From Physcia stellaris (Eukaryota; Ascomycota; Lecanoromycetes; Caliciales; Physciaceae), in the NCBI GenBank assembly GCA_018902385.1, contig JABSSW010000002.1, positions 1,364,001 through 1,428,000 on the forward strand: a stretch of 64,000 nucleotides of DNA, read 5' to 3'. Both the position numbers and the translations under genes were made by a program. The notes beneath the pieces are model-generated. The model ran no database searches, was not told where the DNA came from, and was given only the letters and a program-made list of their open reading frames with translations. Positions 12,246-34,011 of this stretch are shown one piece after another. Within the stretch, counting starts at the first letter, position 1, and every line of letters begins with the position of its first letter.

Positions 12246-12569
12246 ATGAAATCACGATCAATGATATCACACGACAAAAATTCAATCAAATTCAAAGAAA
12301 TCGAAACGACGATAATTATTGACATGACTATTGATTTTGAAAAAAATTCTGAACATTTCGACGATACGTATTTTTCTGAAATCGAAAAATTGAATTCATT
12401 CGAAAATGCGAATTCGTTCGAATTCGATGAAAAAACAAAAATTGTCAAAATTTTGATTTTTTAATTTCGAAAAATAAATGCAATTATCAGAAAAATTACA
12501 GAAAAACGCAATTTAATTCAAAATCGTTTGAATATGTCGAACAACGACGCACGAAATCTGATCATCAAT
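12246..12569 (+). pseudogene. Left part of a locus split by the DIRS-like insertion
   Basis: AT-rich flank lying outside the retroelement but carrying the same loss of CpT and ApG. A frame rich in Glu/Asp/Ser/Asn opens at 12246, and one at 12535 (MSNNDARNLIIN) ends exactly at the element edge. On the far side of the element (32980) the sequence goes on in the same frame as RSKDFVICVDAYQDQRAKV. The flanks therefore look like two pieces of one host locus interrupted between codons. No family is recognised. The left piece has been mutated; the right piece has not. Confidence 0.45.
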
Positions 12570-12690
12570 TCGTTCAAACTAAACGTCAATGTTAATGCAA
12601 AAATGACGAAATAAAAAAAATTTGAAAAAATTGATTTTTTAATTAAATAGAAAATCAATGTTTCATTTTTTTCATTTTTCAATTTTTTTT
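12570..12690 (+). repeat. A1 terminal repeat of the DIRS-like element
   Basis: About 120 bp, matching 32635-32757 closely in the same orientation; both contain the long T-rich run with TTTCATTTTTTTCATTTTTC. It begins right after the triplet AAT. Confidence 0.75.
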
Positions 12691-14581
12691 TTTTGCAAAT
12701 ATTTGCAAAAGTCAATTGTAAAAATTTTTATATCAATTTTTGATATTGCATATTTCAATTTTTCGATTTTCGCATATTTTTTGTTGTAATATTTCGTTCG
12801 ATTTAATTAAAATTCGATTTCGTTAATTTTTTCGTCGTCGCAATAATGTTTGTCGATATCAAATTCATTTTCATTTCAAACAAAAACAATATTATCGTTG
12901 TCAAAAAAAACAATGACAACAATGTATTCAAATTCAAATTCAACAAATTTGCAATTTTCAAACGAATCATTTTCGACGTAAAAAATCGTAATCGAATTGA
13001 AAAATTTGTTTCACGTTTTCGTTTCATTTCAACGCGTTCATTTAAAAATATTTTTCGTTTCGTTCGTTTTCGAATTTTTTTTTTCGTTTGATTATTTCGA
13101 AAATCAAATCGAAAACGTAAACGAAAACGATTTTAACGTTATAAATTTTAATTTTATCGATTTCGACAACGACGACGACAACGCATTTAACGACGACGAA
13201 TTTCAAATTCGACGATCACGCGCACGCGAAAAATTTTCAAATAACGAAAATTTCGTTCAAAAAGAAAAAAATTTTCGTCGTAAAATATTTTTTCAAAAAA
13301 AAATAAAAACGTATCAAAAAAAATTGAATGAATTCATTTTCATTCAACGTACGTTGTTTTCGTTGTTTTTTTTTTTTTCACATTTTTCAAATTCGTATTT
13401 CGTTGTCGCGTTTATTGTTCAAACGATCGAAATTCGTACGAATTTTTTACACATAATTCATGATTCGAAATATTTCAAAATAAAACGAACATTTGTCAAC
13501 ATGTCGTTTCGATTTTTGCAAAACGTTTATCACGATCGTTTAAATGTCAGAAATTTTTTCAAATTCATTTTTTTGAGTTGTATTAGAAATCGTTGTCGAT
13601 ACGTGTTCAAAATTTTTCAAAAATATTTTTTTTGTTGATGACGATGAAAATGTATTGCAACGTTGTTTTCGAATTCATTCATTCGAATATTCAATACAAA
13701 TTGAATTTCGTCATAAATACGTATCGTATTCGTATCATAAAAACGTATTTTTACAAAACGTGAACGTCGATCGTGACGTGACACGAAAAAATTTGATTCG
13801 AATCATTCGCACAAATCAAAACGATTCGATCAATTGATTAATCAAAATCGATTTCATCGAATAAAAATTGAAAAATATCGTCGTCGTCGAATCAAACAAA
13901 AAAACGATTGAATATTAATTTTTCGTTTTACGCGAATTCAAAAATAAACGTATTACAATTCGCAATAATGTTTGTGTTGCGTTCAACAACAATATTCGTT
14001 GTAACGAAAATTGCAAATACAAACATATTTATACAAAATGTCAACAAAAAAATCACGACAAATTCGAATGTATCAACAAAATCATCAAATGATTAATCGT
14101 TTTTTTTTTCGTTCAATTTTTTTTTTTTTTTCTTTCGAATTATTCATTTCGTATAATCATGTCGATTTCGATTGAATAATCGTCAAAAAAATTTCTGTAT
14201 AATGTCGTTTTCGAAAATACATTTGATTTCGAAATCAAAATGTCATTGAAAACGACAAAATGAATTTTTTCTTAAAAATCATTTTGATCGAAATTTCGTT
14301 AACAAATTGTTTAACATTATTAAACGAAACGCGAACATCGAATATATCGATGATAAAAAATATCGTATTTTCAACAATCACAATTCGATCAACGAAATTT
14401 TCGATTTATTTATTGTTGATTTCGTCAAACAAATAAAAATTCATCGATTGATTAAATTACGCGATATTTTTTCTTTTTATTACGTATGTTTTTCGTTAAA
14501 TCTGATTTCAAAACACGACGACGATTGAAAACGTATTCATGATTTATCATTTTTCAAAAAGAATTCGATCAATAAAAATCT

Positions 14582-14774
14582 TGAACGAATGTGAATGATT
14601 GTCATTGCATTGCATGCAATATTATCGAAATTACGTACAAAATTAAATACAATTTGATTGCGCAAATATTTTTAATAATAATCGATTTTAACACGTTTCG
14701 TTTAATCGATCAATCAGAAATTTTGATTTTATTCGTATTCATATTTCAGTTTTTTGTCATCGTATTTTTCAATA
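14582..14774 (-). repeat. Copia 3' LTR
   Basis: 193 bp, very similar to 30033-30225 in the same orientation. On the minus strand the pair runs from T(G/A)TTGAAAAATACGATGAC to CATTCGTTCA, close to the usual TG...CA limits. Confidence 0.75.
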
Positions 14775-15437
14775 TTTTCATTCGATAACAATCATGTTCA
14801 TTGCATTCGTGAATGCGATTTTTATTAAATTTCAATTTTTGCATTGATTGTGATTTTCATTGAATATTAATTCGTGCAACGACGTAATTTTCATTGAATT
14901 TCAATTTTTACGTTCATTGATGAAAAAAACATTGAATTTTTCTGATCAAAAAATTAATTTCGAAAAAAATCGTTTTGAATTATTATGCAATTCGAATCTG
15001 AACACGATCAACGAATTTTTGTTTTTAATTATAATTTGTCAAATTCGTACAATCGAATTATCATCGTTTCAAAATGAAAAAAAATGACGTAATTTTCATT
15101 AAATTCGAATTTTTTTAATATTGACGAAAAAAATATTGATTTTTCTTGATTAAAAAATTAAATTCGAACGATTTCAAAAAAAATCATTTTGAATTATTAT
15201 GCAATTCAAATTCGAACACGATCAACGAATTTTTGTTTTCGATTATAATTCGTCAAATATGTACGATTGAATCATCAACACGTTAACATGAAAAAAACAA
15301 TTTTGATTATTGAAAAAAATTTAATTGATTTTCGATTTTTTCAGTTTTAATTGTTTTACGAATTTCTTGAATTTATTTTTTGACAATGATTTAATCAAAT
15401 TATCGATTATCATGTTTGCATTTGAAACGTAATTCAA

Positions 15438-15755
15438 TTAAATCAAATTTTTCTGATGCAAATTTTTGATGTTGTGATAAATCACATCAATATATTTTGA
15501 TCGTTCGTGAATATATGCGTTTTTGATCAACAAATTAACGATTTGATTATTTTTCAAAAATTGTATTGATAAACAAATTTCATGTTTATCGTTTTGAATA
15601 ATTGTTATTTGATTCAATTCGATTTCAAAATATTTGATAAAATTCAAATCACGAAAAAATTGTGTTATTCGTAATTTTTTTTTAACGCACGTCGATAAAA
15701 TTATATATTCGATTTCAATGATTGAAATAGCGATCGATTTTTGTTTACAATTCAT
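15438..15755 (-). pseudogene. Copia RNase H remnant
   Basis: The frame retains the order and spacing of Copia RNase H landmarks (an EIEYI segment near the start and a KYIDVIYH segment near the end). It is a fossil fragment of the Copia element. Confidence 0.75.
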
Positions 15756-16457
15756 TCACGATATTGATTTTTCAACGAACATGTAAACGTATTCGAAAAT
15801 CGATTTTTTGTTTAATTTATCGACTGCGTAATCAAAATTCGAATAAATTTTGATTTTGAAATTTTCATTGTTGTTCAATTTCAAATCGTATACAAAATTT
15901 AAATTGATGATCAATCGAATATAACGAAACAAAATTTTTATTGTTTTATCGTGATGTTTCGCAAAATCATTAAAATATTAATTTGATTGTTTTAATGCGA
16001 AAACGATATTTGAACGAATGTGTATAACAACATACATAAACTTTTCAATTTTGTGTTGATAATTTTTTGAATCAATTCGTTTATCGTTCGATTTAATTCA
16101 TTTGAATAAATCGTAATCGTTCATGAATAATTTCGTACGTTCGTGTTTATCGATATTCATATGCAATTCATTCAATATTTCGTTCAAATAATGAATTTGA
16201 TTCAATCGAATAATTCGTCTTTTACGATCGCGAATGATTTTAATGTCAAAATTTTTTTTTTTCAATTTTTTGATTTTGAATATTTTTTTAAATTCATTTT
16301 TGAATCAATTGATTTGTTCGTTGAATTTGACGACAACAAAAATGTCGTTCACGTAAAAAAACAATATGATTTTTCGTTTTTTATAACGAAACATGCAAAA
16401 ATCAATCGAAATTTGTTCGAAATTTAATTTATGCAACTTTTTCACGCAATGTTCGTG

Positions 16458-16769
16458 TCAATTTTTAATTGTTTGTTTCAATTCATAAAAATTTCGACGA
16501 ATCAAAAATGTTTGTTCAAAAAATAAATTCACGTCGAATGACGATTTTATGTAAATTATTTTTTTTAAAAATGATTTCGTGAAAACATTGTTGACGTTCA
16601 TTTGATAACATTCGAAATTTTTCAACGTAACGATAACAAGAAACAAACGAAAAATATCGAATTTGACAATTGAAACAAAAATATTTGTATAATCGATTTC
16701 ATACATTTGCGAAAAATTTCTTGCAACGAATTTGATTTTTACTTTGTTCAATGTATCATTCACATGCAT
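16458..16769 (-). pseudogene. Copia reverse transcriptase remnant
   Basis: The frame matches the Copia RT N-terminal part (VARNFSQ, DYTNIF, RLFLVI and the NVNNVF segments). A mutated fossil fragment. Confidence 0.8.
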
Positions 16770-17273
16770 TTTGATTTTGAATATTCATTTATTGATGACA
16801 ATATTGACGTTTTTCGATAAAATGATTACGTTTCAAATTTCATTGATTATTAACGTCGTCAATTCGATTTGAATGATTTTAAATCAAAATTTGTTTCAAA
16901 TAAAATCATTGACGACTTTCTGATAATTTTCGAATACAAATATGATTAATTTTTCAACGAATTGTTGATTTGTTTTTCTTGTTGTTACAGACAAAATTCA
17001 TTCATTATATTTGCACGTATCGAAATTTTCGATCAAAAAAATCATTATAACGCGTGCAATTTTGTTACGATTTTCATTTCGTTTTTTTTCATTCGTGATA
17101 TTTCGTTTGCGTTTGAAAATTGTCACATGAAAAAATTGTTGTATCATGCGTGAAAATTTAATAAGAAATGTTAATTTAACGCGCGTTTAAATTGTCGATT
17201 TTGTCGTAAATTCGTTGATTTCATTTTTTTCATTCGATGTATCGATAAATTCATCATCGTTTTTCTTTGTGTG

Positions 17274-17278
17274 CATTG
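17274..17278 (+). repeat. Target site duplication CATTG (left)
   Basis: A 5-bp duplication, CATTG, at 17274-17278 and again at 20447-20451, exactly at the two ends of the small LTR element. Confidence 0.85.
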
Positions 17279-17474
17279 TATTGAAAGAATCATGGGTGAC
17301 TATCATTCATTGCTCTGAAATCTCGTTATTCTTGTAACATACATGGAGTGGAAGCACAGGAAGGGTGCGGGTGCCAAGGCACTAGTCCCAACAAGGACGC
17401 ACTAGTCCTCCTTTCGTCAGGTTATACCAACTGGACCCTTGGTTACCTTCCTGCGGAGGCTGTACTTCTCAACA
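17279..17474 (-). repeat. 3' LTR of the small LTR element
   Basis: 196 bp; on the minus strand runs from TGTTGAGAAGTACAGCC to TTTCAATA. About 98% identical to 20251-20446. Confidence 0.9.
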
Positions 17475-17539
17475 CTCCCCCACAGCATCCGCCTGTGCCT
17501 CCTGCCCAGTATCCTGACGAGCTCAGCCAGCCTGGAGCT

Positions 17540-18740
17540 TCCGTGCAAGCTCCTCCAGCGATGTAGCTCCCCCAGCGATGTGACTCCCCCAGCGATGTGT
17601 TGCCTGGAGCTTCCGAGCAAGCTCCCCCAATGACGTAGATCCTGTAGGGCTAGGCCATGCACCGATGCGAAGGCTGCAGAAACGAACGAATCGAGGTCCG
17701 ATGACCTATTGGCTTCAGATATGACGTAAGGCCGAATTGTAAGGCGTGCGACCGAGCATCTGAAGGATTGCGACCGTGTTCTGGATCTCCATGAGGTGAA
17801 GCATCGATGTGGGATCTGGTACCTAGGATTGGCTAGAAGATACACCATTAAGCAAGTACCCTATGCCTGAGTTCTGCGATGGCGAACGAGAATGCGGGTC
17901 ACACCATGTAGCATCATTGTGGATCTCAGGGTTCTCAGGTACTTCTTGCGACATCAATGGACCGATACCTATGCAATTTGGCTGTAGGAATTCCATAAGG
18001 TATGCCAGTGACGTAGGGCAAACAGGAGATGGTCGAGAAATCGATAAGGAAGGTAATGCATCGAATGCGCGGCATGGATTGCGGGCATACACCGATGCGA
18101 AGAGTGCAGAATCGAGCTATTCTGACCTGACTAAGACCTGCCAGAGAACCAGGTCGATTAGTATGCGAAAAGGTCAGATATCTCCAACACTATTTGTCCT
18201 TCTTGATCGAGTTCTTGCTCTGCAAGGCCGAGTATGTAATGGCTGCATAGTACGCTCCCCCGAAGCTGTACTATCCGAACGTGTTGGCCAGTACACTCCC
18301 CCGAAGTTGTACTGTCTAGTCGGCTGTTCTCCTCTTCTAACAACTGTTCGTACTGTACGTCAGTACGCTCCTCCGAGACTGCACTGACAGACTGTACTCT
18401 CACTCTCTCCCCCTCGTATTTATCGGGCGAATGACGAAGCCGCAGGGTGTAGGGAGTAGGTGAGTTTTCGTGTTAGATCAAGACGAAGCCACAACAGAGG
18501 TAAGTCCCTACTCATTAGTGAAACAATAAAACAAAGCATACAACAACTTTTAAAGCTCCCCCAGGCCACAGGGCGGGAGGGGCGGGACATCGAATCCATT
18601 TAAACAACAACAACAACTTTTAGCTCCCCCCAGGCCGATCAACGGATAATAGGGAGGGCGGGCGGGCAAAACAACAAACAAACAACATGCTAACTCCCCC
18701 AAAGTAATGACCCCGAGGAGGTCAATACTCCCCCAAAGTA
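17540..18740 (-). repeat. Scattered GGGGGAG (polypurine-like) short repeats inside the small LTR element
   Basis: On the minus strand GGGGGAG (or a one-base variant) recurs roughly a dozen times: in CATCGCTGGGGGAG-type units at about 17.56-17.63 kb, in AGTACAGCTTCGGGGGAGCG-type units at about 18.25, 18.29 and 18.37 kb, and in short GGGGGAG units at about 18.55, 18.62, 18.69 and 18.73 kb. They resemble the element's own polypurine tract. Confidence 0.65.
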
Positions 18741-20083
18741 GGGTGCAGAGGAGCGAAACGCCAATAGCGCATCCCCATGGGTATCTCATTGCTCCCAACT
18801 CTGGAGGCATTTGGCATGGCCCAACCGGTAGGCCGATAGGTGGCAGAACGCCCTTGGCAATGCCTGCAAACAGGAGGTGGGGGCGAGAATGCCGAGAAAG
18901 AGGGGCGCACCGAAGCAAATCGAGAAGGAAAAGAGGTAGGTGAGGCCGAAGGCCACCGCGAGACCGAAAATTGGCGCGGAACGCTTCCGCGGGCATGTGT
19001 TGGCCCAAATGCTTCGGATTTGGCCGATTTGGAAGCAGGTGTGGTCGCCGCATGGAAGTATGACGTAATGCGGCTTTGTATGGGGCCACATTTGCTTGCG
19101 GGACTGCATTTGCCAGGGCCGCGCGGAGACAACGGCTTCTTCTGGCCAGGCTGCAGGCCAAACGGCTTCGGCTTCCCAGCGAACATGCGGAACAGGTCGT
19201 CCACGGTGAGATAGGGCCTCGATGGTGTAAGCGTTCGAGGCGGAGTAGGCGGGCAAGCAATGCTTGCATTCTCCAACGGTTTGCACACCGATTTGGGTGT
19301 CGCAATCGGGAGACGAGAGGGTTTCGGTGCAACGACTGGCCGTGAGGCGATTTCTGCCCAGGATATCGGCTTTCTTGGTGTTGCAGCCGACGAGGTAGGT
19401 GATATACTCTCTGAACGCTCGCGTACAATTTCTGGTGCGGGCATCGAGAGAGGTATGAGTTTCGGTGACGTGGGAGGTGACGAGGTTACCGATTCAGGTG
19501 ACGAAGCAGGAGGAGTAGGAGGTTTCGATTCGGAAGCAGGTGAAACAACAGACTGCTGAGCAGGCTTCGATTTCGGCTTCTTGGCATGACGAGTACGGAT
19601 ATGCTCATGAAGCTTGGTGTTGCTGTCGAATTTGCTCTTGCAACGCCTGCACGTATATCCTTCAGCCCGTTTCGCTGCTATGCGGGCCTCCTCTTTCTGC
19701 TTTGCCAACTCCTTTGCTTCCTGCTTGAGTTTGCTCTTGACTTCCAACTCATGCTTTCGTAGATGATAGGTTTCTTGTGCCCTCTTCGCCTGAGTGAACC
19801 AACTGCATCTCGAAACACTAGTAAGGCTTGAGTTCGTGTGCTCGTGATACAGCGATCGAGGGTCTTGCGTTCTCGGATCATTCGCGTCGAGGCAGGTGCA
19901 AAGAAGAGGTGACCAGGGGAGTATAGCGGGTGCGGAGGTGATCGCAGAAGTAGGAGTAGTCATTCTGCTGACTGCGCTAAAGTGTAGGATTCGCGTGAGG
20001 GTTCGATATCGTAAGGTAACTAGGTAGGTCGAAAGCTGACTGTTCTGATTTGTACCAAGGTACTGAATATTGCTCGATTGCAA
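18722..20083 (-). CDS. C2H2 zinc-finger ORF of the small LTR element
   Basis: One open frame of 453 codons; a shorter start at 19963 (MTTPTSAITS) is also plausible. It has a Lys/Glu-rich coiled-coil-like segment (KSKLKQEAKELAKQKEEARI) directly before a single C2H2 finger (C-x2-C-x12-H-x4-H, within YTCRRCKSKFDSNTKLHEH), then a Pro/Ser-rich region and a short conserved-looking block (YLTVDDLFRMFAG). Small fungal LTR elements with a nucleic-acid-binding, gag-like ORF of this layout are common; a gag-like role is inferred. It belongs to the mobile element, not the host. Confidence 0.7.
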   Translation of the reverse strand: MQSSNIQYLGTNQNSQLSTYLVTLRYRTLTRILHFSAVSRMTTPTSAITSAPAILPWSPLLCTCLDANDPRTQDPRSLYHEHTNSSLTSVSRCSWFTQAKRAQETYHLRKHELEVKSKLKQEAKELAKQKEEARIAAKRAEGYTCRRCKSKFDSNTKLHEHIRTRHAKKPKSKPAQQSVVSPASESKPPTPPASSPESVTSSPPTSPKLIPLSMPAPEIVRERSESISPTSSAATPRKPISWAEIASRPVVAPKPSRLPIATPKSVCKPLENASIACPPTPPRTLTPSRPYLTVDDLFRMFAGKPKPFGLQPGQKKPLSPRGPGKCSPASKCGPIQSRITSYFHAATTPASKSAKSEAFGPTHARGSVPRQFSVSRWPSASPTSFPSRFASVRPSFSAFSPPPPVCRHCQGRSATYRPTGWAMPNASRVGSNEIPMGMRYWRFAPLHPTLGEY

Positions 20084-20250
20084 TTGGGCCGTTCTGGTCT
20101 GGCCTGACTGGATACTCCCAATGGAGTTGGATACTGCTGGAGTACTGCAAACCGATTGCTGTACTGCCCGACGGCTAGGTACTACGTGCTCATGACGTGC
20201 TGTAGCTGGTACTAGATGTAGCGAAAGCTGCTAACCCGGTTCTCATAACC

Positions 20251-20446
20251 TATTGAAAGAATCATGGGTGACTACCATTCTATTGCTCTGAATCTCGTTA
20301 TTCTTGTAACATACATGGAGTGGAAGCACAGGAAGGGTGCGGGTGCCAAGGCACTAGTCCCAACAAGGACGCACTAGTCCTCCTTTCGTCAGGTTATACC
20401 AACTGGACCCTTGGTTACCTTCCTGCGAAGGCTGTACTTCTCAACA
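20251..20446 (-). repeat. 5' LTR of the small LTR element
   Basis: 196 bp, partner of 17279-17474, followed by the right target duplication CATTG at 20447-20451. Confidence 0.9.
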
Positions 20447-21184
20447 CATTGATTGAATTTTTTTTTTGTTTTTCGAAATCATGAACGCAACAAAAATCGA
20501 AATTTTCGCAAAAATTAATGCGACAAAAATTTGTGCAAATGCAATAATTATTTTGCGTGATTTTTCGACAAATCGTTATTCAAATAATTCGTTCATCGTA
20601 ATCGTGAACAAATTTAACGATTCATTTTTTCATTTTTCACGTTCAAAAAATATCATTTTGTGATGTTTGATGACATTACGACGATCGAAAATTCATATTT
20701 TGTATTGAATCGTGATGTTTTCGTCATAATTCATGAACACGTTTCATTTATTTGTATTGACGAATTTGTTTTTTTTATTTTTTTTAAACAATAACTTGAT
20801 ATTAACGAACGAATAACATTTGTATTTTCAAATTCGTATGTGATTTATTGACGATTTAATATTTGTTCAAATTTCAATAAAATTTGTTAAATTGTCGTCG
20901 ATTATTGATTTCGTATTTATACGATTGCGAACGTATGTATTTGTTTTTTCTGTTTCAAATCAAAATTTTATAAACAATTTTGCATTTTGAATCATTGTTC
21001 GAATTTAATTTTCAGTCGTTTTTATGACACGTTTTATTACATCGTTCTGAATGAAATTATACGAAACGATGTATTGTGAAACAATGTCGATTAATTCACA
21101 TCAAAAATCGAATATAAATTTCAATTTTTTGACGTTGTCACAACGTATTGTTTGTAATTTTCGTTGAGTTTCTAATTTCATTTT

Positions 21185-21421
21185 TATCATGAATCGTGCT
21201 TGAATAAACGTATTATTGATTAATTAAACGAAAACAATAAATTTGCAAAAACAAATAAATACAAAATGATGAAATTGTAAACAATGTGCAAACGTCAAAT
21301 TTCAATTCACGTTAATTTCGTCAAAAAATTAAAACATAATTCGATTTAAACATATCTGTTCGATCATTTATTATATCAATTATCTATTTGTCAAATTTAT
21401 TTGTTAAACATGTTCGTAACA
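21185..21421 (-). repeat. Gypsy 3' LTR
   Basis: About 237 bp, closely matching 27598-27833. On the minus strand it starts TGTTACGAACATGTTT and ends CATGATA. Confidence 0.85.
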
Positions 21422-22142
21422 TTATTTTCTTTTTTTCGCGAATCTCGTTTCGACGATTCGTTGTTGTTTCGAAATTTGAAAATCTTGTTGAAAATTTTGT
21501 TAATCAAATTGTATGATCGCAAAATTCAAAAATTTTACGATCATCATTTTTTATTTTTTAATATTTTATTGTCATTTCAAAATTCGATAAAATTTGACAA
21601 CAATTTTTGAAAATGTTTTTGACACGATTCAATTTTTTATGCAATGTAAATTCTGACTGTAAATAACATCGAAATAACAATAAAAATTGAATTGTTGAAT
21701 GAAAATCGTGATGTCAAAAACAAATGAATGAAAATCGAATTCGTAACGTCAAATGTTAATCGAAAATAGTTTCGATTAATGTCAACATGACGATTTTTTT
21801 TCGAAAACGACGACGATTCGTTGAAAAATCTGATTCGTTAACGACGATTTGAAATATTGAAATCAACATTTTGAACGATTTTGAATTTGTTGTCGTGAAA
21901 TGATTACGATGAAAATCGTTCATCACATCGCGAACATTATCGAATTTTTCGTTGTCGACATAATATTACGTTCAATCATGACATCAATTTGATCAATTGA
22001 CACGATATTGAAAACGATTTTAATAATATCGAAATTTCAAAATATCGTTCATTTTTCATTCGAAATTCTCGTTAATTATGACAAAATCGAAAAATTCATT
22101 AATTTGATTTTCGAAAAAATTTCGAAAATTTTTGCGAAAAAA

Positions 22143-22583
22143 TCAACAATGAAACACATCGTAAATTCGCATAATTTTTGACAATTCGAATCGATAAAAA
22201 TTGTTTTTACGTTTTAATATTTTGTACGAATTTAATTTTTTGTCATCAAGTTTGTCAAATGATTTGATCGTTTTGATGTTTCGTCGATTCAAAAAAACGA
22301 AATTTTTTTCGACGTATTTCACGATTTTTCGATGTTTGTTGATTTGAATTATTATACGTTTTTGAATCATTTTTGCATGATTTCGTACGTAATTGAAAAT
22401 ATTTTGCATGATGTCGATAATATTTTTTGTTTTGACGATCAAAAATCGCTTTTTCGTTGTAACATACGAAATAAAATTTGATGAAAAATTCATACGAAAA
22501 TGAAAATTTTTATTGATGAAAAATGATGATAATTTTGTTGTTGCAAATATCGCGTTGTTGTTTGCAAATTCGATTATAAACAA
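22143..22583 (-). pseudogene. Gypsy integrase C-terminal remnant
   Basis: Frame with the landmarks of the region after the integrase core: an EFANNNA segment, then KLDDKKLNSYKI and a final MRIYDVFHC segment, as in fungal Gypsy polyproteins. A fossil. Confidence 0.75.
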
Positions 22584-23663
22584 TCAAACGTTTCAATCGT
22601 TTTGCATGTAATTGCAATATTGTCGCAATTGTTTCTCGATATTTTGATTGATTTTTTCGATTTGTTCATCGATTTCTGAATGAAAAACGATGAAAAATTT
22701 ACATTTGATGTCGAGAATTTTGCAAAAAACTTGTCAAACGAATAATATGAATTGAAATTTTCGATTTGACGTTATAGAAAAAAATAATTCATGCGTACGA
22801 AACACGTAATTGATAAATATTTTGATCGTGATTTTCGTATTTGTATTTTCATCGTCGACGATGCAAAACACGTAATGACGTTTTTTATTAAATGTGTCGA
22901 TTATCGTACAAATAACGTTGTGATCGTGAACGTCGAACAATTCAATGATAAAATTCATGAATATGTCGATTTAACGTTGCAAAAAAATGATCAAAAAAAT
23001 GAATAAATCATTTTTTGAATTTCGAAAAATTTTCGTACGTTGACATTTATAACAATTGCGTACGTATCGACGAACGAATTCGCGCATGTTGAATCAATAA
23101 TAATCGCAACGTATAAAATTTTTCATACGATTAAAAATTGAATGTTTCGAAATCGAAAATTCATGAATTTTTTTGAAAAAATCAACGAGTAAAAAAACGT
23201 CGACAAACATTCATAATCGATCATTTCGATATAAAATATCGTTTTTTTCATTGCAATTTCGTAAATCGATTTCGTTCATTGATGTGAAATTTTGTTCGAT
23301 AATTTCACGATATGTCGTGCAATCATCGTCAATTTTATTGACAATCAAAATTCGTTCATAAATAAATTCGTCAAATTTTATCGCGTGAATTTCGAATCGT
23401 TTTGAAATGAACAATATTTGTTTTCGATATTGATGTCGTTTATCAATTTCGTTTTTGAATCGAAAATCAAACATACGAATCAAAATATTTGTTTTAACGT
23501 TTTAAGTTTCGAATTGAAACTGAATGACAATGTTGAATTTCGAGAAATTTTTTGTTCAACGAATTTGACGAAAAGTAAATTTTTTTGACGTCATGAAAAT
23601 TTTCAATTTTTTGTGATCGATGAAAATTTTGATCGATTTTTCGATATTTTCGAATTCAAAACG

Positions 23664-24638
23664 TCAATGTTCTAAACAACGAATAATGATTAGTAATTTT
23701 TTGTCATAAATTTCGTAATTGCATTCGATTGAAATCATGTTACGATTGTAAAAAACAACGAAATGCAACATTTTTTCGTCGTTATATTGAAATAATATTT
23801 TTGCATTGACGTAATCAAAAAAATCGATTTTCAAAATGATTTGTTTTGTTCGATCGTAATGTCGTAATATAAAAATTTTCGTCATTGTTTTTTTGAGAAA
23901 ATTGAAAATCTTTTCGATTTTTTCGATTCATTCGAAATTCACAAATTTCTTGATCATTCGAATGAAAACTCGAAATTTTTTCGAGAAATCACGAATGAAT
24001 CGTCTGTAAAAATTGACGAAATTCACGAAAATTTGTATTTTTTTCAGATTCGTAAAACGTTTTCAATTGACAATGATTTTTATTTTTTTCGAATTCATGC
24101 AAAAGTTATTTATCGATAATATGACGTTCAAAAATGTTATTTCTTTCTTGAAAAATTCGCATTTTTCAATATTCATTTGTAATTCGACTTTTTTGAATTT
24201 TTTCAGTATTTTACGAACGTGAACGATGTGTTTTTTTTTGAATTTGTTGTAAATGAAAATATCATTTAAATAAATTTGACAAAAATCGTTCAGAAAATTG
24301 AATAACAAATCATTTATGTAATGTTATCAATTCGCAAATTCGTTGATCAATTCGAAAAATAACATTCGATATTTTTATGATTTCATAAAAATAACGAACG
24401 TGATAAATTTTTCATTTTTTTTATTCATTCGAAATTTGTTGAAAGTCGATATAATATTTAATTTGATTAAATATTTGCAATTTTGCATTTTGATTAAAAT
24501 TTTTTCGATCAAGAAAATAAAATATCGATTGCGTTTTGTGATGTGATTAAATCGTCGATAATTCACACACAAACGTAATTGATCGTTCGATATGATTGCA
24601 AATAAAACGAACGAAACGTATGCAATTTGATTGAACAC
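23664..24638 (-). pseudogene. Gypsy reverse transcriptase and RNase H remnants
   Basis: Separate fragments retain RT (24375-24638 and 24063-24308) and RNase H (23664-23885) landmarks in the order expected of Gypsy. A fossil, broken many times. Confidence 0.8.
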
Positions 24639-25565
24639 GATAAAATTTTTCTGAAAATTATTTTTCAGATATTTTTTGAATTTCTGAAGTTTGAATTAGA
24701 ACAGAAAATATATTTTGTTTCGAAACAATGAATTGTTATCGCTTAAAAATTCGATTTTGTGATCGTAAAATCGATGCAATGACAATTCAATTGTTTTTTG
24801 AAAATCGAATATTTTTGAGAAATGTTTGAAATATTTGAATATTTTTTTCATTATGCGTTCAAGAATCGATTTGATTTGTTCGTGTTTCAGAATTTTTTTG
24901 ATTATGACAACAATTTTCAACGATTCAAAATTTGTTCGCAATGTTTTGAACGCGAAATCGATTTGATTGATCGTAATGAAAAAACATTACATTTTTTGTT
25001 TTTTGTTTTTGAAATCGACGAATAAACAGAAAAAAATTGTATCAATTATCGCGATATTCATTGAATCGTCTGAATTCAATCTCGATGATGAAAAAATTTC
25101 GAATTGTTGTTTCTTGATTTTTCAACGTTTGTTACGTTGTTTTTTCAAGTTTTTTTTGATGAATATCGTTTTCGTAATTGTTGTGATATCAATTTTTGAA
25201 TTATTTGATTCGATAATTGACGACTCGTCATCGTCGTCGACGTTCGAATGAATTGAACATTCGAAACATTTCGAATCGAATACATTTGATTCATTTTCAA
25301 CTGTAAAAAGCAAAAATTTGATTTTGAAACGAAACAAAATGATATATCGAAATTTTATCATCGTTATATGTTTCGAGTCGTTTTTTTGCGATAATAAAAT
25401 ATCACGACGTCAATTAAATACATTTCATCGACGATTTGACTTGAGAATTTCCAAACGTCGAATTTGAACAATTTGATTAAATATGATGTCATGATGATTA
25501 CATTTAAACGATTTGAAAATCGATTTATCGTAAATCATATTCAATATGATTTCATGTTTGTTTAT

Positions 25566-25898
25566 TCACGATTTTTCTAAAATTATCGAATGATTATTCA
25601 AATCGATGATTAACAAAAAAACGATCAATTCGAAATGCAATTTTATCGTTATTTTAAAATATATAATATGAATTATTGATGAAACTTGACGATTGTCGAA
25701 TTCAATCAATGATTTCGATTTCAATAAAAATACGAATTTCATGTTCAACATGTTGCATACAAATTGCGCGATGTTTTTATCAATGAATGCATAATCAATT
25801 GCATCAATGTTTATTAAAATTTTTAATTTATGTTTATTATCGTTGAATGATAACGTACAATTGATAATTAAAAATCGTTTGATGAAAAAATCAAACAA
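25566..25898 (-). pseudogene. Gypsy protease remnant
   Basis: Frame matching the retropepsin region of fungal Gypsy elements (CTLSFNDNKHK, an ID-A-YAFID segment, and IILEKS at the end). A fossil. Confidence 0.65.
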
Positions 25899-27597
25899 AT
25901 CATCATTGTGAATAAAGAAAATTTTTAAACATTCATCAATCGCGTTTTTGATGTGAATTGTTAATTTTTCGAATCGAAATTATTCGATTCGACGATTAAA
26001 TTCATGTACGATATTTGCATTTTGTGTCAATGACGTTTTTGATGTTTGTGAACGTTCGAACATTTTTTTCAAACGTGATTCAATTCATCACATGTGAAAC
26101 ATTTGTTCGTGACGATCAATTTGTCAATCATCGAATCACGAAATTTGATTTTCACATTGAAATGAAAATGAATCGTTGATTTCACAAAAAAAACGAATGT
26201 AACAAATTTCGTAAACGATATCGAAATCGAAACGACAAAAATGAATTTGAATTGAAATAATTCAAAACGTTGTTGACGTGTTGTCGTTTTTTTTTTTTAA
26301 AATTCGTTTGTCGATTGTAAATTTGTTAAAAAGTGATTTTGATTTCGTCAAAAATGATAAATTCACGAAAATACACGCTCATAATTTTTTTCAAATTTCA
26401 AAAAAAATTTTTCATTAATTTTTCAATTTTAGTAGTCTCGTTATAGTCTGTTGAATTACTGAAACGAAAAAAAATGAAATAAAACGATTGAAAATTTTGA
26501 ATGTTCATGATCAATGTTCGAAATTGATTACGCATGTTGCGTTTGAAATCAAAATTATCGTAAATGTTTGACAGAAATTTCAACATCATAAATCAGTTTT
26601 TGAAATGATTGAAATCGATGTCACGTATCGATTGAATGTGATCGTTAATTTCGTCGACAATTCAATCAATAACGAAAATAACGACAAACAATTTCGTATT
26701 GTAATGATCGTTGTTGATCGTCATTTTATTATACATTTTCGTTTTTCATATACGTCAAATGAAATTCATTTCATCGATAAACGTGAATAAATCAAAATGT
26801 TTGACAAAACGACATTTTTTTGAAACGTTGAAAACAAACGCATTGTCGTCATCGTTGTTTTCACGTTTTTTTTCGTTGATCGATAAAATTTAATATTTTA
26901 ATTTCAACGCGTCGTATTTGTTTTGAAAAATGTTATAAATTGTATCGTTTTGAATTTTCAATGAACGTTTTTTCGTTAATTCGAAATTAATTTTTGCGAA
27001 TTGATTGATGTTGTTTTGAAATTCATTCGCAAAATTCTGATATTGATTAAAAATTTTCAAATAAATGTTTCGATTCGAACGCAAAACATCGAATTTTTGC
27101 AAAAAATTGACGATATGATTTTCGATTCATCATTTTAATTGATTGACGTTGATAACGTTCAAAAAATAAATAATATCGTCATTTTTTATCGATACATTTA
27201 TATGCGAAAAAACGAATTTGCGACGTTTGAATTGAATTACGATTTTTTTTTCATTGATGTTGTCGATTATTTGTTTCAAATGACGATCGATTTCGACACG
27301 AAAAATTTCAAATGACGAAATTTCAAATGAAAAAAAATTATGATAATTTCGAATTATAACGAAAAATAAAAAAATTGACGATTGTAAAAAAAAAAAAGTA
27401 AATTTGTTTGTTGTTTTTTTATCGTTTTTTATCGTCGAAAATTTCGTCGTTATTTCGTCAAAAAAAATTTCAAGTCGTTTGTTTGATTAGCAGAATTTTT
27501 CGTCGTTTGTTTCGTCAAAAAAACTTGATCGATTTGAAATTTTATTTTTGAACGTTCGCGTATTTCGACGAACGATAAAAATGAAAATTTATTGTAA

Positions 27598-27833
27598 TAT
27601 CATAAATCGTGTTTGAATAAACGTATTATTGATTAATCAAACGAAAACAATAAATTTGCAAAAACAAATAAATACAAATGATGAAATTGTAAACAATGTG
27701 CGAACGTCAAATTTCAATTCACGTTAATTTCGTCAAAAAATTAAAACATAATTCGATTTAAATATATTTGTTCGATCATTTATCATATCAATTATTTATT
27801 TGTCAAATTTATTTGTCAAACATGTTCGTAACA
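27598..27833 (-). repeat. Gypsy 5' LTR
   Basis: About 236 bp, partner of 21185-21421. Confidence 0.85.
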
Positions 27834-27895
27834 ATTTTCAATTTTCATTTGTTGAAAATTTTTGATGCATCGATTCGTTTGCGAAGAAATAAAAT

Positions 27896-28575
27896 TCACG
27901 TTCGTCGAAAATGATTATTTACGATTTTTAAAAAATATTCGTAATCGAATTTTGAAACAAATAAAAATTCACAAATATCGATAAATATCAATTTCAATAT
28001 ATGAATTTTGCGTTCGATTAAACGACGATTATATGCATTAATTATTTTCGTAATCGTATATATTTTGCATGAATCGTTGCGATTTTCAACAATGAACATT
28101 GATTTGCGTAAAATTGTAATTTTGTGCAAATTTCGAATTTTTGCAAATTTCATATGATTAAAACGTCGATGTCATAATTCGTATAAATCACGTTTTTTTG
28201 ATTAACATTTGAATCGATATTTGAATCAACATTCGATAATTGAAAATCGATTTCGATATTATTTCGAAAATCAATATTTGCATCGAACAAAATTTCGTTC
28301 GAATTTACGATTGTTGATATTGCAAATAAAATAAACAAAATTTTAAAAAATTCAATTGCAAACATCGTGTTGTTCGTTAACAATGCGTATTTTTTAAATT
28401 TTGATATAATTTTATTTATTATGTAAACATTTTTTTGAACGAATATTCGAAATATTTCAACGTTTTGTTTATTACGCATGAACAAATTATCGTTATTGAA
28501 ATTTTTTATCAAATTTTTTTTGATAAAATGTTTGTCGAATAAAAAATTGACGTCGAAATCAAATACATAAAACAT
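27896..28575 (-). pseudogene. Copia pre-integrase / integrase N-terminal remnant
   Basis: Two fragments (28150-28575 and 27896-28153) keep Copia landmarks: a SKFKKYALL segment, NLHKITILRK, and a zinc-binding-like H...C pattern leading to IDICEFL. The Gypsy insertion starts just downstream in the element's direction. A fossil. Confidence 0.7.
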
Positions 28576-29070
28576 TTTCGTTAACGTGTTTTTATCATTT
28601 TTGACGCGTATCGTTATTGAATCACATTAATTTGAATACAATTTTTTTTTCGATTTCGATCGTGCATTTTTTAATCGATTTGAAAAATTTATTAAAAAAT
28701 CGAAAAACGTTAATCATGTGTGACGAAACGTCGATATTTGCAATTTATACGAATTTGAAAAATTTATTAATCAATTTTTTTGACAAAACAACGATTTTTT
28801 TATATTATTTTCATTGTTTGAATCGATGTCGATGTCGAAATTGAAATTGTTATTAAACGAAAAAAAATTTGCGACGTTGTACGTTTTATGTTTTTTATTT
28901 TTTTTTTATTTTTGATTGTGAACAATTTTTTGATTTGTTGTTTTTTTGTTTATTTTTTTAATGTTTTCAAAAAATTGTATTCGACGATTCTGTGTGAATC
29001 GTTACAAAAAAAACAATTTTTAATTTTTTTCGTCATGATTTTGAAACGACGACGAAAATTTTCATCAAAA

Positions 29071-29412
29071 TTAAAAAATCGTCGTTAAAATATGCGATAC
29101 GATTGACGACGATTGTTTTTGATCATTAACGTCGATTCGACGATTTTGTTCGCAATGAATTGTGTTTTTTTTTTGCAATTTTTGAATAAATTTATCGACA
29201 TCGAAATTGTTTTGTGCGACGATTGTATTACGAATGACATCGTATTCGACAAACAAAAATTGTAAAAATGTTTGAAAACGACGTTTTAATTTGAACAAAT
29301 TCGTCATATTTGATTGCAAATTTGCGATTTTGCGATTTTTTTTGATAATATTAATGTAAACGATTTCGATAATCATATTTGAAAATTTTTTATAATTCAT
29401 GAATTTTTGCAA
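29071..29412 (-). pseudogene. Copia gag remnant
   Basis: Frame with the fungal Copia gag-like segments EYDVIRNTIVAQ and KLQKKNTIHCEQ. It lies upstream of integrase and downstream of the 5' LTR, as expected. A fossil. Confidence 0.65.
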
Positions 29413-30032
29413 ATATTGTCGTTCAATTGTAACAAATTTTTGTTTGTATTTGTTGACAAAAACTTTTCAAATTTTTTTGACGATTTTCAATTTCGTTATC
29501 AATTTTTGATTATCGTCATCGATACATTCGATAAATTAATATTGTGTTTTTGCGTCGAATTTTTTTTCAATATTTTTATTATCAAAATTTAAATCGACAT
29601 TTCATTTTAATTTTCGAAAATTATTCGATAACAATTTCGACACATAATTTAAATCGACGATTATTCAAATTTTTTCGTCGATAAATTATTGTTTCATTAA
29701 TTTGAATCATTTTTCGCAATTTTGACGAATAAAAATATCGCAAATTCGACGCGCATTGAATTTGTTAAATTCGAAATCGTTCATGATACGTGATATGATA
29801 TGTAAATATGTAAATTTTTTTTATTTGTTGTATTTCGTGAAACATTTTCACAATCGTTCGTTTATTCGTTGAATTGATAATCGAATTCGAATATGTAAAA
29901 CATTTTTACAATTTTGACGCGATCGAATCGATAAAACATTTTCATTGTTGTTTGATTTTCGTGATTTCGTAATCGAACGATTGACGTTAACAATCACAAA
30001 AAATTTATGATAATTCGAATTTCATAATTTTT

Positions 30033-30225
30033 TGAACGAATGTGAATGATTGTCATTGCATTGCATGCAATATTATCGAAATTACGTACAAAAATAAATA
30101 CAATTTGATTGCGCAAATGTTTTTAATAATAATCGATTTTGACACGTTTCGTTTAATCGATCAATCAGAAATTCTGATTTTATTCGTGTTCATATTTCAA
30201 TTTTTTGTCATCGTATTTTTCAACA
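30033..30225 (-). repeat. Copia 5' LTR
   Basis: 193 bp, partner of 14582-14774; on the minus strand starts TGTTGAAAAATACGATGAC. Confidence 0.75.
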
Positions 30226-30558
30226 AAAAACATTATATTCGACGTCAAAATTTTAAAATACGTTACGTTCGATGAAATTATTGCAATATTCATAATATCA
30301 AGAACGAAATATTGTAATGTTCAAAGAAAATTTCGCAAACGCGTTCAAACACATTTTTGTGATCGTATAAAATCGTTGATTATTCGATTTTTGTTAAAAC
30401 GACGAATTTTACATGAAATTATTTTTATTTTTCGATTTTCGAATCGTTTTTTTTTTTGATTTATTTGCTAAAACGTTGCATTAAATTCTCGTTAAAATAA
30501 ATCATTTTCGCATCGTTTTTCATTATTTAAACGATTTTTTTTTTTTTCATCATGAAAT

Positions 30559-32361
30559 TTGACATCGATTTTGAATTATACAAAATTATTTGACAAAATA
30601 TTTGCAATAAATTCGATTTCGAAACAAACGCGAAAAAAAAAATCTGACACAAAATTCGAATTTCTGAACATCGAATTCGATAACGAAATTATAAAAATTC
30701 GATTTTTTTCAATTAAATTGACGAGAACAATAAAATCGATCAACGTGATTTTTATTCAAAATGTTTTCACATTTTGTCAAATCGATTTTTTCGTGAATTT
30801 TCTATTTTTTTGTACAAGAGTCGTGATTTTTGAACGATTTTTTTTTCATTTTTTTGTATCGAATTCGCGATCACATTCGAAACGTCAATAAATTATACAA
30901 ATTTAACGAAATCATGCGAACAAATTTACGTTAATAACAAATGTTTTTTTCACGATAAAACGATATCAGAATTTTGCGAAAAATATTTTTACGATCGTCA
31001 AATCATATTTGAACAAACGTTTCGAATAATTGAAACATAAACGATTTTTGATTTCGTGTTCTTGACGACGAATTATTCGAAAATTTCAATTGACGTTATT
31101 CAACGCGTTTTCGCAATCGACAATTGAATATTCAAATCAAAAAAATGCAAACGATGTTACACGTTTTGCGTCAATGATTGTTTTATTTCGAAAACAACAA
31201 AATCGTTATTCATTGCGACAATCAAATCGTTTGTGTCGAATTCGATAAAAATACGATGCGTAATTCAACAATGACATTTTTTCGAAACGTAATCATGTTG
31301 TTCGTTTTTTACGATATTTTGATTGAAATAATGTAATTAAATTCGAAATTCAATCATTTCGTTAATTTATTCTCACGTGATGAACACGATAAAATCGTTA
31401 ACGAATATTCGCAATTGCAAATTCATTATAATCAATTTTAAATTTCGATTTTTCGTTTATCGTTGACGCATCGAAATATTGATATGTTCAAATGTCATTA
31501 AATAAAACGATTGTTCGATTTTTGTAATAAAATTTGATTTTAAATACGCGAAAAATTCACGATTCGATCGTCAATTTATACGTGAAATTTTGCGTTTTTG
31601 ATAAGTTTCAAACGTTTTCGTTCACGTGATTTTGCATTGTCGAATGAATAAATTCGTTGAAATTTCGAAAATTCAAATCGAAAACGATCAAAATATATAT
31701 TATTGATTTACGTTTCGTTTGCGTCGATCGAAAATATTTTGATTTCATCGTTTTCAATGAGTTTTTGTTGCAACGCGAAATCAACGACATCAAACGTATG
31801 TATAACGAAAACGAAACACGTGAACGCAAAACGATTATTCGTAATATTTTATTAAAAATTTTGCAATTTTTCGATATTCGTATCAAAAAAAATGTTACAT
31901 TGCACGTCGCATTTTGTTTGATTTTTGCAAATTTTTTGCGTATCCATAAATTTACATGATTTGATGTTGATCGCACGTTCAATTTCGACAATTGATTTGT
32001 TATTCGTTTTTCGATGATTTTTTTTGACGATTATTTCGTTTTAACGTTTTTTGTTTCGAAAATCGATTCATTTCGCAAAAAAATTTCGATATTCATTGCA
32101 ATCACGAATGATGTTGTTTGTGCGATAATTTCATTACGTCATTTGTTTTTGCATTTTTCGATTTCGAAATACGTTTTTTTGTTTCAAATCGAAAAATCAA
32201 GAATTTTTAATGTTCAATTCGTCATCAAAATATTACGCAAAACGATCGAAAATTTGAAACACGATAACAATTATTCGAAACATTTTTTTCGACGTAATGC
32301 GACAATCGAAATTCGCAATGCAAATGTTTCGAACGATTTGATTCAATTTTTAAAAAAATAA
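30559..32361 (+). pseudogene. DIRS-like RT / RNase H / tyrosine recombinase remnants
   Basis: Right-hand coding part of the outer element. 30559-30891 keeps a DIRS-type RT C-terminal landmark (FLNIEFDNEI... with the DFFVNFLFFCTRVV segment). About 31.19-31.3 kb reads as an RNase H segment around IHCDNQ. 31657-32361 has the tyrosine-recombinase fold landmarks (RNILLKILQFFD, LHVAFCLIFANFLRI, then the segment before HFFRRNATIEIRNANVS that holds the recombinase HxxR region). RT followed by a tyrosine recombinase is diagnostic of DIRS-like elements. A fossil. Confidence 0.7.
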
Positions 32362-32506
32362 AAATCGAAAACGTTTTTGTTGTATATCAAAATTAACAAA
32401 AATTACGTTTTTCGAACATCGCGTTATCATCAAAACGATTGAATTGTTTTCGTTTTTCGTTTTGTTTAAACGACGACGTCGTTTTTCGACGTGTTTTGAA
32501 ATTGTG

Positions 32507-32634
32507 AAAAATAATCAAATTTTGAAAATTGTTTTGTTGAATTGTTTTCGTTTATGCAAAAAATTTACAAATCGATCAAATTCAAAACATCAAAATTTTT
32601 GTACATAACAATGAAAAAAATACGAAACATTAAT
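32507..32634 (+). repeat. B1 internal repeat of the DIRS-like element
   Basis: About 128 bp, a mutated copy of 32851-32979 (B2). It runs directly into A2 at the junction ...CATTAAT|TCGTTC. Confidence 0.85.
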
Positions 32635-32757
32635 TCGTTCAAATTAAACGTGAATGTTAATGCAAAAATGACGAAATGAAAAAAATTTGAAAAAATTGAT
32701 TTTTTAATTAAATAAAAAATCAATGTTTCATTTTTTTCATTTTTCATTTTTTTTTTT
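32635..32757 (+). repeat. A2 internal repeat of the DIRS-like element
   Basis: Matches A1 (12570-12690). Its start abuts the end of B1. The B1|A2 junction equals what joining the right end (B2) to the left end (A1) would give, which is the signature of split direct repeats. Confidence 0.8.
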
Positions 32758-32850
32758 CGTTCATTCATTTTTTGATTTTTTTCGACGTTTTTATTTTTTT
32801 ATGAAATTTTGTTTTCTTTTTTTCGTTTCAAAATTCAATCGCAAAAACAA

Positions 32851-32979
32851 AAAAAGTAATCAAATTCTGAAAGTTGTTTTGTTGAGTTGTTTTCGTTCAT
32901 GCAAAAGATTTACAGATCGATCAGACTCAAAACATCAAGATTTTTGTACATAGCAATGAAGAAAGTACGAAACATTAAT
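32851..32979 (+). repeat. B2 terminal repeat of the DIRS-like element, not mutated
   Basis: Same 128-bp sequence as B1 but with normal CpT/ApG content. It ends ...GAAACATTAAT at the element boundary. Confidence 0.85.
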
Positions 32980-33319
32980 CGCTCTAAAGATTTCGTGATT
33001 TGTGTAGACGCATATCAAGATCAGCGTGCGAAAGTTTTCGAAAGTCATAATCACGATGCATGTAAGCTTGAAGAACATGAAAAGCAAATGAAAAAATTCA
33101 AGAATAAGACAAAAAAGTTCATGTAACGTATAGCCTTCCAGACTTTATGACTTGTCACTAAAAGATTTGACGACAATGTTCATCTTACACGATTTTCCCG
33201 ACATTCATGGTTCAACTTCGAGAGAGGATGCCTGGATATCTGTATGGAACAACATGCAAGCAGACTACTATCGACTCTGTATCGAGCAAGCAAAAGATAA
33301 GCCCACCGTCTTAAACTGA
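32980..33319 (+). pseudogene. Right part of the locus split by the DIRS-like insertion
   Basis: From 32980 the frame RSKDFVICVDAYQDQRAKV continues to a stop after a Lys-rich stretch (33126), in the same frame as the left flank's LIIN. A further open segment (about 33176-33319, DAWISVWNNMQADYYRLCIE) may be a last exon after a short intron (possible GTAACG donor at 33123). Normal composition. No family is recognised. Confidence 0.4.
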
Positions 33320-33353
33320 TGAACTCCTCACACTATCCTCGACGTTCCGTCGG

Positions 33354-33490
33354 CGCACGAGGACCTGGCCTACTCACACCTCCCCAACTAGCCACCTCCG
33401 CACGTGTCTCCGGTCTACTCATGCCTCCCCAACTAGCCACCTCCGCACGAGTCCCCGGTCTACTCACGCCGCCCCAACTAGCCACCTCCG
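33354..33490 (-). repeat. 45-bp tandem repeat, three copies
   Basis: Three 45-bp units. On the minus strand each encodes 15 residues of the type AEVASWGGVSRPGTR. The SWGGVSRP core also occurs in the protein at 45902-46606, which ties this stretch to the same family. Confidence 0.8.
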
Positions 33491-34011
33491 CCCCCTCCCC
33501 ACCCACAGCACGACCACCTCGCCCATCGCCCGCCCGCCCCCTTCTGCCCTCCCCCGACCACCGCGCCCAGCACGCCCCGCCCTCCTTCCACCCTCCTTCC
33601 ACTCTCCCTCCCTAACCCCCCCGGTCCTCTCAGCGCGCCAAAATGCACCAAAAGCCCTCTCCAAACGCCAATCTCCTCCAAACTGTGCTTGCACCAGTCA
33701 GCGCCCGGATCCGGGCCTCGAGTGCGGCTGTATATATACTCGAGTTCTTCGGGGCCTTCGACGCCGCGGCGCTCTAGACTGTGGAGCATGGCGCGGTAGT
33801 TGCGGGCGTGGTCTGGGCATTCGGAGCGGGGGAGGTTGCAGGGTTGGGGGTTGCGGGGCCAGGGGGTTACCCTGGTGGGGCGGGAGGAGGTGGGGTTTTG
33901 GTGTGGTGGTTGTTGATGGTGGGGAGACATTGTTTGCTTTGTTGGTTGATGTTGATAATGTTTGTAAGGGAGTATGGATGCTGGGAGAGGAGTGGGAGTT
34001 CTGGAGTTCAT
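33478..34011 (-). CDS. Small Cys/His-motif Gly-rich family protein, member 1
   Basis: Start ATG at 34009-34011 (MNSRTPTPLP); the frame is also open a little further up. A Pro/Gln/His-rich N-terminus precedes a core with C-x6-C-x2-H (from QPCNLPRSECPDHARNY), AMLHSLERRGVEGPEELEY and a VHFGAL end, matching the other family members. The C-terminus in this frame is a Gly/Arg run ending at 33478; another frame there encodes SWGGVSRP repeats like those of member 5. The real C-terminus may thus lie in the other frame, through a frame slip in G-rich sequence or an unseen intron. Function unknown. Confidence 0.55.
   Translation of the reverse strand: MNSRTPTPLPASILPYKHYQHQPTKQTMSPHHQQPPHQNPTSSRPTRVTPWPRNPQPCNLPRSECPDHARNYRAMLHSLERRGVEGPEELEYIYSRTRGPDPGADWCKHSLEEIGVWRGLLVHFGALRGPGGLGRESGRRVEGGRGVLGAVVGGGQKGAGGRWARWSCCGWGGGGGG

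Follow-up and report, generated by a model that had tools for sequence, protein, structure and literature searches.

In the 64-kb stretch of Physcia stellaris DNA analysed here (the window; contig JABSSW010000002.1, positions 1,364,001 to 1,428,000 of the forward strand), a block of retroelements at 12246-32850 has lost nearly all cytosines followed by a pyrimidine (CpY, i.e., CpC and CpT). The change is from C to T, occurs on both strands, affects gypsy- and copia-type elements and is accompanied by very few other base changes. The order of targets, CpC > CpT >> CpA >= CpG on both strands, was observed in mutated and unmutated copies of the same elements and can be stated with very high confidence. 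Repeats of this fungus have probably been hypermutated by a process resembling repeat-induced point mutation (RIP) with a changed target choice, in which C is turned to T before a pyrimidine on both strands.

Dinucleotide composition of the block

Positions are those of the window, and numbers preceded by L denote individual loci from the 44-Mb genome that was searched for relatives. Block counts were made on 12246-32850 minus an insert at 17279-20446, that is, on 17,437 bp. This DNA contained 2 CC, 0 GG, 81 CT and 70 AG, together with 971 CA, 1086 TG and 1086 CG, whereas shuffling the block 200 times at constant composition never gave fewer than 492 CC+GG or 1536 CT+AG. In the remainder of the window dinucleotides were close to expectation, the flanks and the insert being normal; compared with it, CpC/GpG and CpT/ApG were strongly depleted in the block and CpA/TpG stood at a normal level. 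An earlier sequence-only reading of the window had proposed, from a hand count at 13681-13980 (29 CG and 18 CA) and from sampled lines, that CpT and CpC are nearly absent throughout. The full count gave an even stronger depletion than had been claimed, and the hand count was reproduced, with CC, CT, AG and GG all at 0 and with 28 CG plus 18 CA inside the interval and the C at 13980 preceding a G.

The TpA/ApT ratio was 0.43 in the block vs. 0.69 in the flanks, and (CpA+TpG)/(ApC+GpT) was 1.33 vs. 1.27; thus, compared with the flanks, the block has less of the product that RIP normally leaves and no less of the substrate that it normally uses. The signature of CpY depletion starts at about 12.25-12.4 kb and ends at about 32.82 kb, where it adjoins a less mutated tandem copy. 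The two members of this tandem pair (32506-32635 and 32851-32980) share 88.5% identity; on inspection by eye, mutation is complete in the first and less advanced in the second, which lies just past the edge of the block.

Comparison of mutated copies with unmutated relatives

Relatives with near-normal levels of CC, CT, AG and GG exist elsewhere in the genome (L035-L038, L049, and L063), and copies with normal CpY content are called unmutated here. Unmutated relatives displayed 97.6-100% purine/pyrimidine identity to the mutated copies and carried the CC, CT, AG and GG that these are missing, thus indicating that the C-to-T changes are real and not an original composition of the elements. Losses were polarised with the unmutated copies and counted only in columns whose nine neighbouring bases agreed in purine/pyrimidine class. 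The family formed by L039, L050, L061 and L064, which has no unmutated member among the loci analysed, stands outside the polarisation, as do L040, L051, L054, L055, L058 and L060.

When L035 was compared with ten mutated relatives, the pooled loss was 3822/3895 for CpC, 3574/4095 for CpT, 237/3908 for CpA and 114/3694 for CpG; the pooled copies are related to one another and the events not independent, and L042, which is related to L035, falls outside the ten-copy comparison. In the cleanest pair, L052 against L035, 425/427 CpC and 437/448 CpT had been lost as compared to 25/434 CpA and 0/408 CpG, with 1/1652 changes from T to C or A to G. Over the 3466 aligned bp of this pair, 887 C-to-T changes were counted; two further base changes, of which one was a transversion, and 13 gap positions made up the rest. 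The preference for a following pyrimidine, proposed earlier from composition, is therefore borne out when unmutated copies are paired with mutated ones. The gaps between L035 and L052 consisted of eight single-G gaps and five inserted A/T, which are possibly homopolymer errors of the assembly, and L035 itself, although unmutated in the sense of normal CpY content, is split among several overlapping frames. L040 is a mosaic copy, its 300-bp parts ranging from 0 to 114 CC/GG per kb.

The gypsy stretch of the window itself (22795-26058, plus strand, aligned with 300 bp extra on each side) has two unmutated relatives, L036 and L037. DNA identity to the two was 69% and purine/pyrimidine identity 97.6-97.7% (68.8% and 97.6%, respectively, with L037), and the loss against L037 amounted to 377/385 for CpC, 314/347 for CpT, 49/361 for CpA and 33/369 for CpG. 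The order of contexts was identical against L036, and the two unmutated copies differed from each other by 3-5% in every context. Loss was practically the same on the two strands of the window stretch (0.53/0.53 against L037 and 0.52/0.51 against L036), and ranged over 0.40-0.53 vs. 0.49-0.57 in the L035 family. L049, taken as the source of L062, L046 and L057, was a poor reference, with a purine/pyrimidine identity of 91-94%; the order was unchanged and the background higher.

Treating loss as exponential in eleven comparisons, with a half-site correction in two of the CpC values, the rate of loss at CpC was 1.4-2.3 times that at CpT, which in turn was 16-71 times that at CpA. The base preceding C had little effect for CpC and CpT, and change at CpG was at or near background. 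Loss of CpA in nine copies varied with the second following base (CAC 92/625, CAT 71/944, CAA 42/1246, and CAG 23/888), which suggests an agent that reads downstream pyrimidines.

Mutation stages in a second family

A multi-copy stretch of the block (27885-29885, plus strand) has 43 matches in the genome including itself, and the 30 analysed form a ladder of mutation stages. In this second family, 29 copies were compared with L034, the least mutated of the 30; the shorter copies L022 and L024 are absent from the 211 pooled pairs and present in the per-copy list. All CpC had been lost in 28 of the 29 comparisons and 6/7 in the remaining one, with only 5-8 sites in each, as L034 retains only about eight CpC. 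CpT loss ranged from 63/112 to 102/102 (56-100%) and CpA loss from 4/253 to 80/211 (2-38%), the maximum being reached in L017, the most mutated of the 29. CpG loss went from 3/215 to 19/195, and counts in the reverse direction were of similar size. Transitions (130-223 per copy) far outnumbered transversions (1-31). The earlier claim that CpA is kept thus holds at early and middle stages, and only partly in the most mutated copies (up to 80/211, L017 against L034).

Indices and criteria for RIP

The published thresholds for RIP indices, as given in the available passages of the source (product >1.15, substrate <=0.75, and composite >0), were reached by 0/31 windows of the block and 0/405 windows of L005-L064. 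Among 1-kb windows of the flanks, 1/84 reached the classic thresholds. Regarding the other properties by which RIP is recognised, C:G to T:A transitions were dominant with few other changes and both strands were mutated, whereas CpA was not preferred (237/3908 CpA lost vs. 3822/3895 CpC). Since both the CpA preference and the standard indices were tested and neither was found, we file the process as a variant of RIP rather than as classic RIP.

Distribution in the genome and in-frame stop codons

With a cut-off of our own (<=25 CC, GG, CT, and AG per 300-bp window), 709 of 919 non-overlapping windows were CpY-depleted; the loci were mostly picked by similarity, so that this figure does not represent a share of the genome. 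None of the 709 fell within the classic index limits (0/709), and no window depleted in CpA with CpY kept was found among the 919. Of 20 preset 600-bp stretches, three (L076, L082, and L087) were AT-rich and lacked CC or GG, L082 being less typical, since CG is scarce and TA more frequent in it.

TGG is the only codon that CpY mutation turns directly into a stop, whereas CAA, CAG and CGA stay non-stop. In-frame stops, tallied by hand from the match tables, were 250 TGA, 33 TAA and 3 TAG among the 150 RVT_1 matches listed, and 401 TGA, 101 TAA and 3 TAG in 137 RVT_2 matches; for DDE-type elements, where the kind of stop codon constitutes the evidence, 10 DDE_1 matches held 44 TGA, 3 TAA and 0 TAG. 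Direct examination of 30 RVT_1 loci gave 49 TGA, 3 TAA and 1 TAG. The share of TAA was 101/505 for RVT_2 vs. 33/286 for RVT_1 among the matches listed, and copies of the copia type may be of greater age or have progressed further with CpA loss.

Candidate enzymes

A search of the genome with the profile PF00145, following the earlier suggestion to look for methyltransferase genes, gave four matches in three genes, two of them RID-like and one DIM-2-like. The RID-like genes lie at L001 844-2505 (plus strand) and L003 1010-3486 (minus strand); each encodes a short DNA_methylase catalytic domain, and we take them to be RID-like from their layout and from motifs identified by eye. Aligned over 297 residues, they show 43% identity, and they have an intron place in common. 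The third gene carries DUF7893 upstream of its methyltransferase domain and is presumably DIM-2-like, judging by layout. When a piece of one RID-like gene was searched against the PDB, 43 sequences were recovered, comprising bacterial, DNMT1-type and DNMT2-type methyltransferases. The search for deaminases, confined to the APOBEC_N profile, gave no match in the genome, but controls were equally silent and the search is uninformative.

According to the available passages of one survey, CpT signatures are tied to a motif in the RID of three species, and RID-like genes occur in one or two copies; this link makes a RID-like gene a reasonable carrier. We lean slightly towards one of the two RID-like genes as the putative carrier of the changed target choice. 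The DIM-2-like gene would be the next candidate, at a low probability.

Elements and other features of the block

The block is a nest of retroelements. Its left part (12246-17278), defined by dinucleotide counts and residual sites, and its right part (20447-32850), defined by dinucleotide counts, lie on either side of the insert (17279-20447), with no strand assigned to any of the three. On the left, the stretch 12400-14400 had 92 matches in the genome, many of them short. A remnant of a Ty1/copia reverse transcriptase (RVT_2) at 16158-16844 on the minus strand (G000:C2:1380158-1380844) contains four in-frame TGA and no TAA or TAG. A frame of 218 codons at 12982-13638 on the plus strand, with no Pfam match, is open within mutated DNA, as expected where CpY mutation creates few stops. 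On the right, a Ty3/gypsy-type element (21185-27833, no strand assigned) is bounded by direct repeats resembling long terminal repeats (21185-21421 and 27598-27833) that are about 96% identical; L037, its unmutated relative, has RVT_1, RNase H and integrase domains.

The insert is of normal composition, unmutated and bordered by 197-bp terminal direct repeats (17279-17475 and 20251-20447). Its family has many genome matches at 65-93% identity, and the three copies compared (L065, L066, and L067) were lightly mutated at most, with losses in L065 of 45/276 CpC, 30/254 CpT, 10/279 CpA and 7/233 CpG; the divergence of this family may place its copies below an identity threshold. In the right flank, 33100-35100 matched only itself in the genome and was of normal composition. 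The mutated block stretches tested were multi-copy and one 2-kb flank was single-copy and normal; most of the mutated DNA, including the three AT-rich preset stretches, lies outside this comparison.

Discussion

We propose that cytosines before a pyrimidine would be turned to T on both strands of repeated DNA, CpC being mutated first and CpT then advancing towards completion. CpA would be touched late, mainly when the base after A is a pyrimidine, and CpG would stay at or near background. Homology would act as the trigger, as in RIP, and one of the two RID-like cytosine methyltransferases would carry the changed target choice. That the process is RIP-like we regard as very likely. The more complete statement has, in our view, about an even chance of being right: a RIP pathway would read the 3' pyrimidine in the order CpC > CpT >> CpApY > CpApR >= CpG, which runs opposite to the orders reported, since one of two diverged RID-like enzymes changed its recognition; elements would be inactivated mostly by missense changes and by Trp-to-TGA stops, and the outcome would be invisible to the indices of large surveys. 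The sequence-only reading had left the choice between a different enzyme preference and a second process acting on repeats; a different preference is the best reading, and a second process is unneeded for CpC and CpT but could explain the late loss of CpA.

Several observations weigh against this explanation. Loss in the L035 family was slightly higher on one strand (0.49-0.57 vs. 0.40-0.53). In L045 and in the window copy, CpA loss was accompanied by CpG loss (28/367 and 33/369, respectively), and the late phase may be due to another process or to age. Differences in CpT in the reverse direction were sizeable in lightly mutated copies of the second family (52/95 in L033), which indicates that L034 is itself mutated and not the true source. 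TAA makes up a fifth of the RVT_2 stops (101/505), beyond what mutation of CpC and CpT alone can make, and this share needs late CpA loss or some other change. The multi-copy family of the insert is at most lightly mutated, which fits an identity threshold and equally a weak or extinct process. Finally, the putative link to an enzyme comes from the presence of the genes.

Other explanations account less well for these data. The idea that the elements always had such a composition, with no mutation involved, is refuted by the unmutated relatives, whose 97.6-100% purine/pyrimidine identity to the mutated copies goes together with possession of the missing CC, CT, AG and GG, and we give it practically no weight. 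Editing of retroelement cDNA by an APOBEC-like deaminase would be in line with C-to-T hypermutation of retroelements; editing of this type is characterised by a strand bias and by dependence on the base before C. Neither was found in the polarised pairs, as C loss was similar on both strands and it is the base after C that decides, the preceding base having little effect for CpC and CpT. Stops in DDE_1 matches were also mostly TGA (44/47). We regard such editing as very improbable.

A DIM-2-like enzyme could instead methylate CpC and CpT, with slow deamination following during growth and no premeiotic step. A DIM-2-like gene is present, and in another fungus Dim2 is reportedly tied to repeat mutation (PMC8016269); however, the composition of the L052 and L035 differences (887 C-to-T changes, two other changes, and 13 gap positions) argues for fast mutation and not for long decay, and we consider this alternative unlikely. 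Ordinary CpA-first RIP observed after exhaustion of CpA would match the CpT bias reported, in the passages available, for several fungi, where by alignment CpT may even be the main type of change. In the CpT families of Colletotrichum truncatum, TpA/ApT is given as 1.61-1.67, with 0.08-0.12 for the CpA substrate index, indicating that CpA is exhausted there too, unlike in our block, where CpA/TpG are normal and TpA/ApT is 0.43. Both the block ratios and the polarised pairs refute CpA-first RIP with exhausted CpA, whose probability we place close to nil.

Comparisons with known systems draw on the available passages of the published sources. RIP of Neurospora crassa, which is RID-dependent, is similar in the both-strand C-to-T change in repeats, the many mutations per copy, the AT-rich blocks and the presence of genes that, in this fungus, are putatively RID-like and DIM-2-like; its order is printed as CpA>CpT>CpG>CpC, so that CpC comes last there and first here (CpC>CpT>>CpA>=CpG). 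Alignment of the Tad1 family of N. crassa shows more change at CpT than at CpA, and another survey places CpT first by alignment in RIP-capable control fungi. CpT is likewise a main target in Botrytis cinerea T4, Magnaporthe oryzae and some C. truncatum families, but there CpA is the second signature or is itself exhausted. Stagonospora nodorum has CpC and GpG among its depleted dinucleotides and a high CpT change in some classes; in contrast to the present case, CpA and CpG are depleted too, only TpA rises, and CpA to TpA is dominant. Trichoderma reesei also has an order of its own, with CpA similar to CpG, then CpT, and CpC last. The CpG-type mutation of Basidiomycota and Tuber shares the C-to-T change in transposons, whereas its target, CpG, is the context spared here.

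The signatures named by a ten-genome survey are CpA, CpT and CpG; the word CpC appears neither in its main text nor in that of the C. truncatum paper. No CpC-first order appears in the available passages of PMC2621366, PMC10998396, PMC7882544, PMC4522978, PMC5555474, PMC4014442, PMC4350166, PMC4133081, PMC6180176, PMC4352252, PMC12543289, PMC10298223, PMC6417074 or PMC5496416. An order with CpC in front and CpA spared did not turn up in the parts of the open literature searched, whose scope does not extend to an older survey of ascomycetes (Clutterbuck 2011) or to several papers that contain the word CpC (among them PMC8959702, PMC10170752, PMC7493409, PMC3017866 and PMC2973834), and an earlier report is possible.

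According to a survey covering 1,239 fungal genomes, RIP-like defences have a preference for CpA in common, and the genome of P. stellaris looks like a saturated counter-example to this. As a natural contrast it would also help to locate the part of a RID-type enzyme that reads the base after C, an issue brought up by one survey, which proposed a RID motif for CpT. Indices based on TpA and CpA score blocks such as this one as unmutated, and RIP may thus have been scored as absent in other genomes of the same kind.

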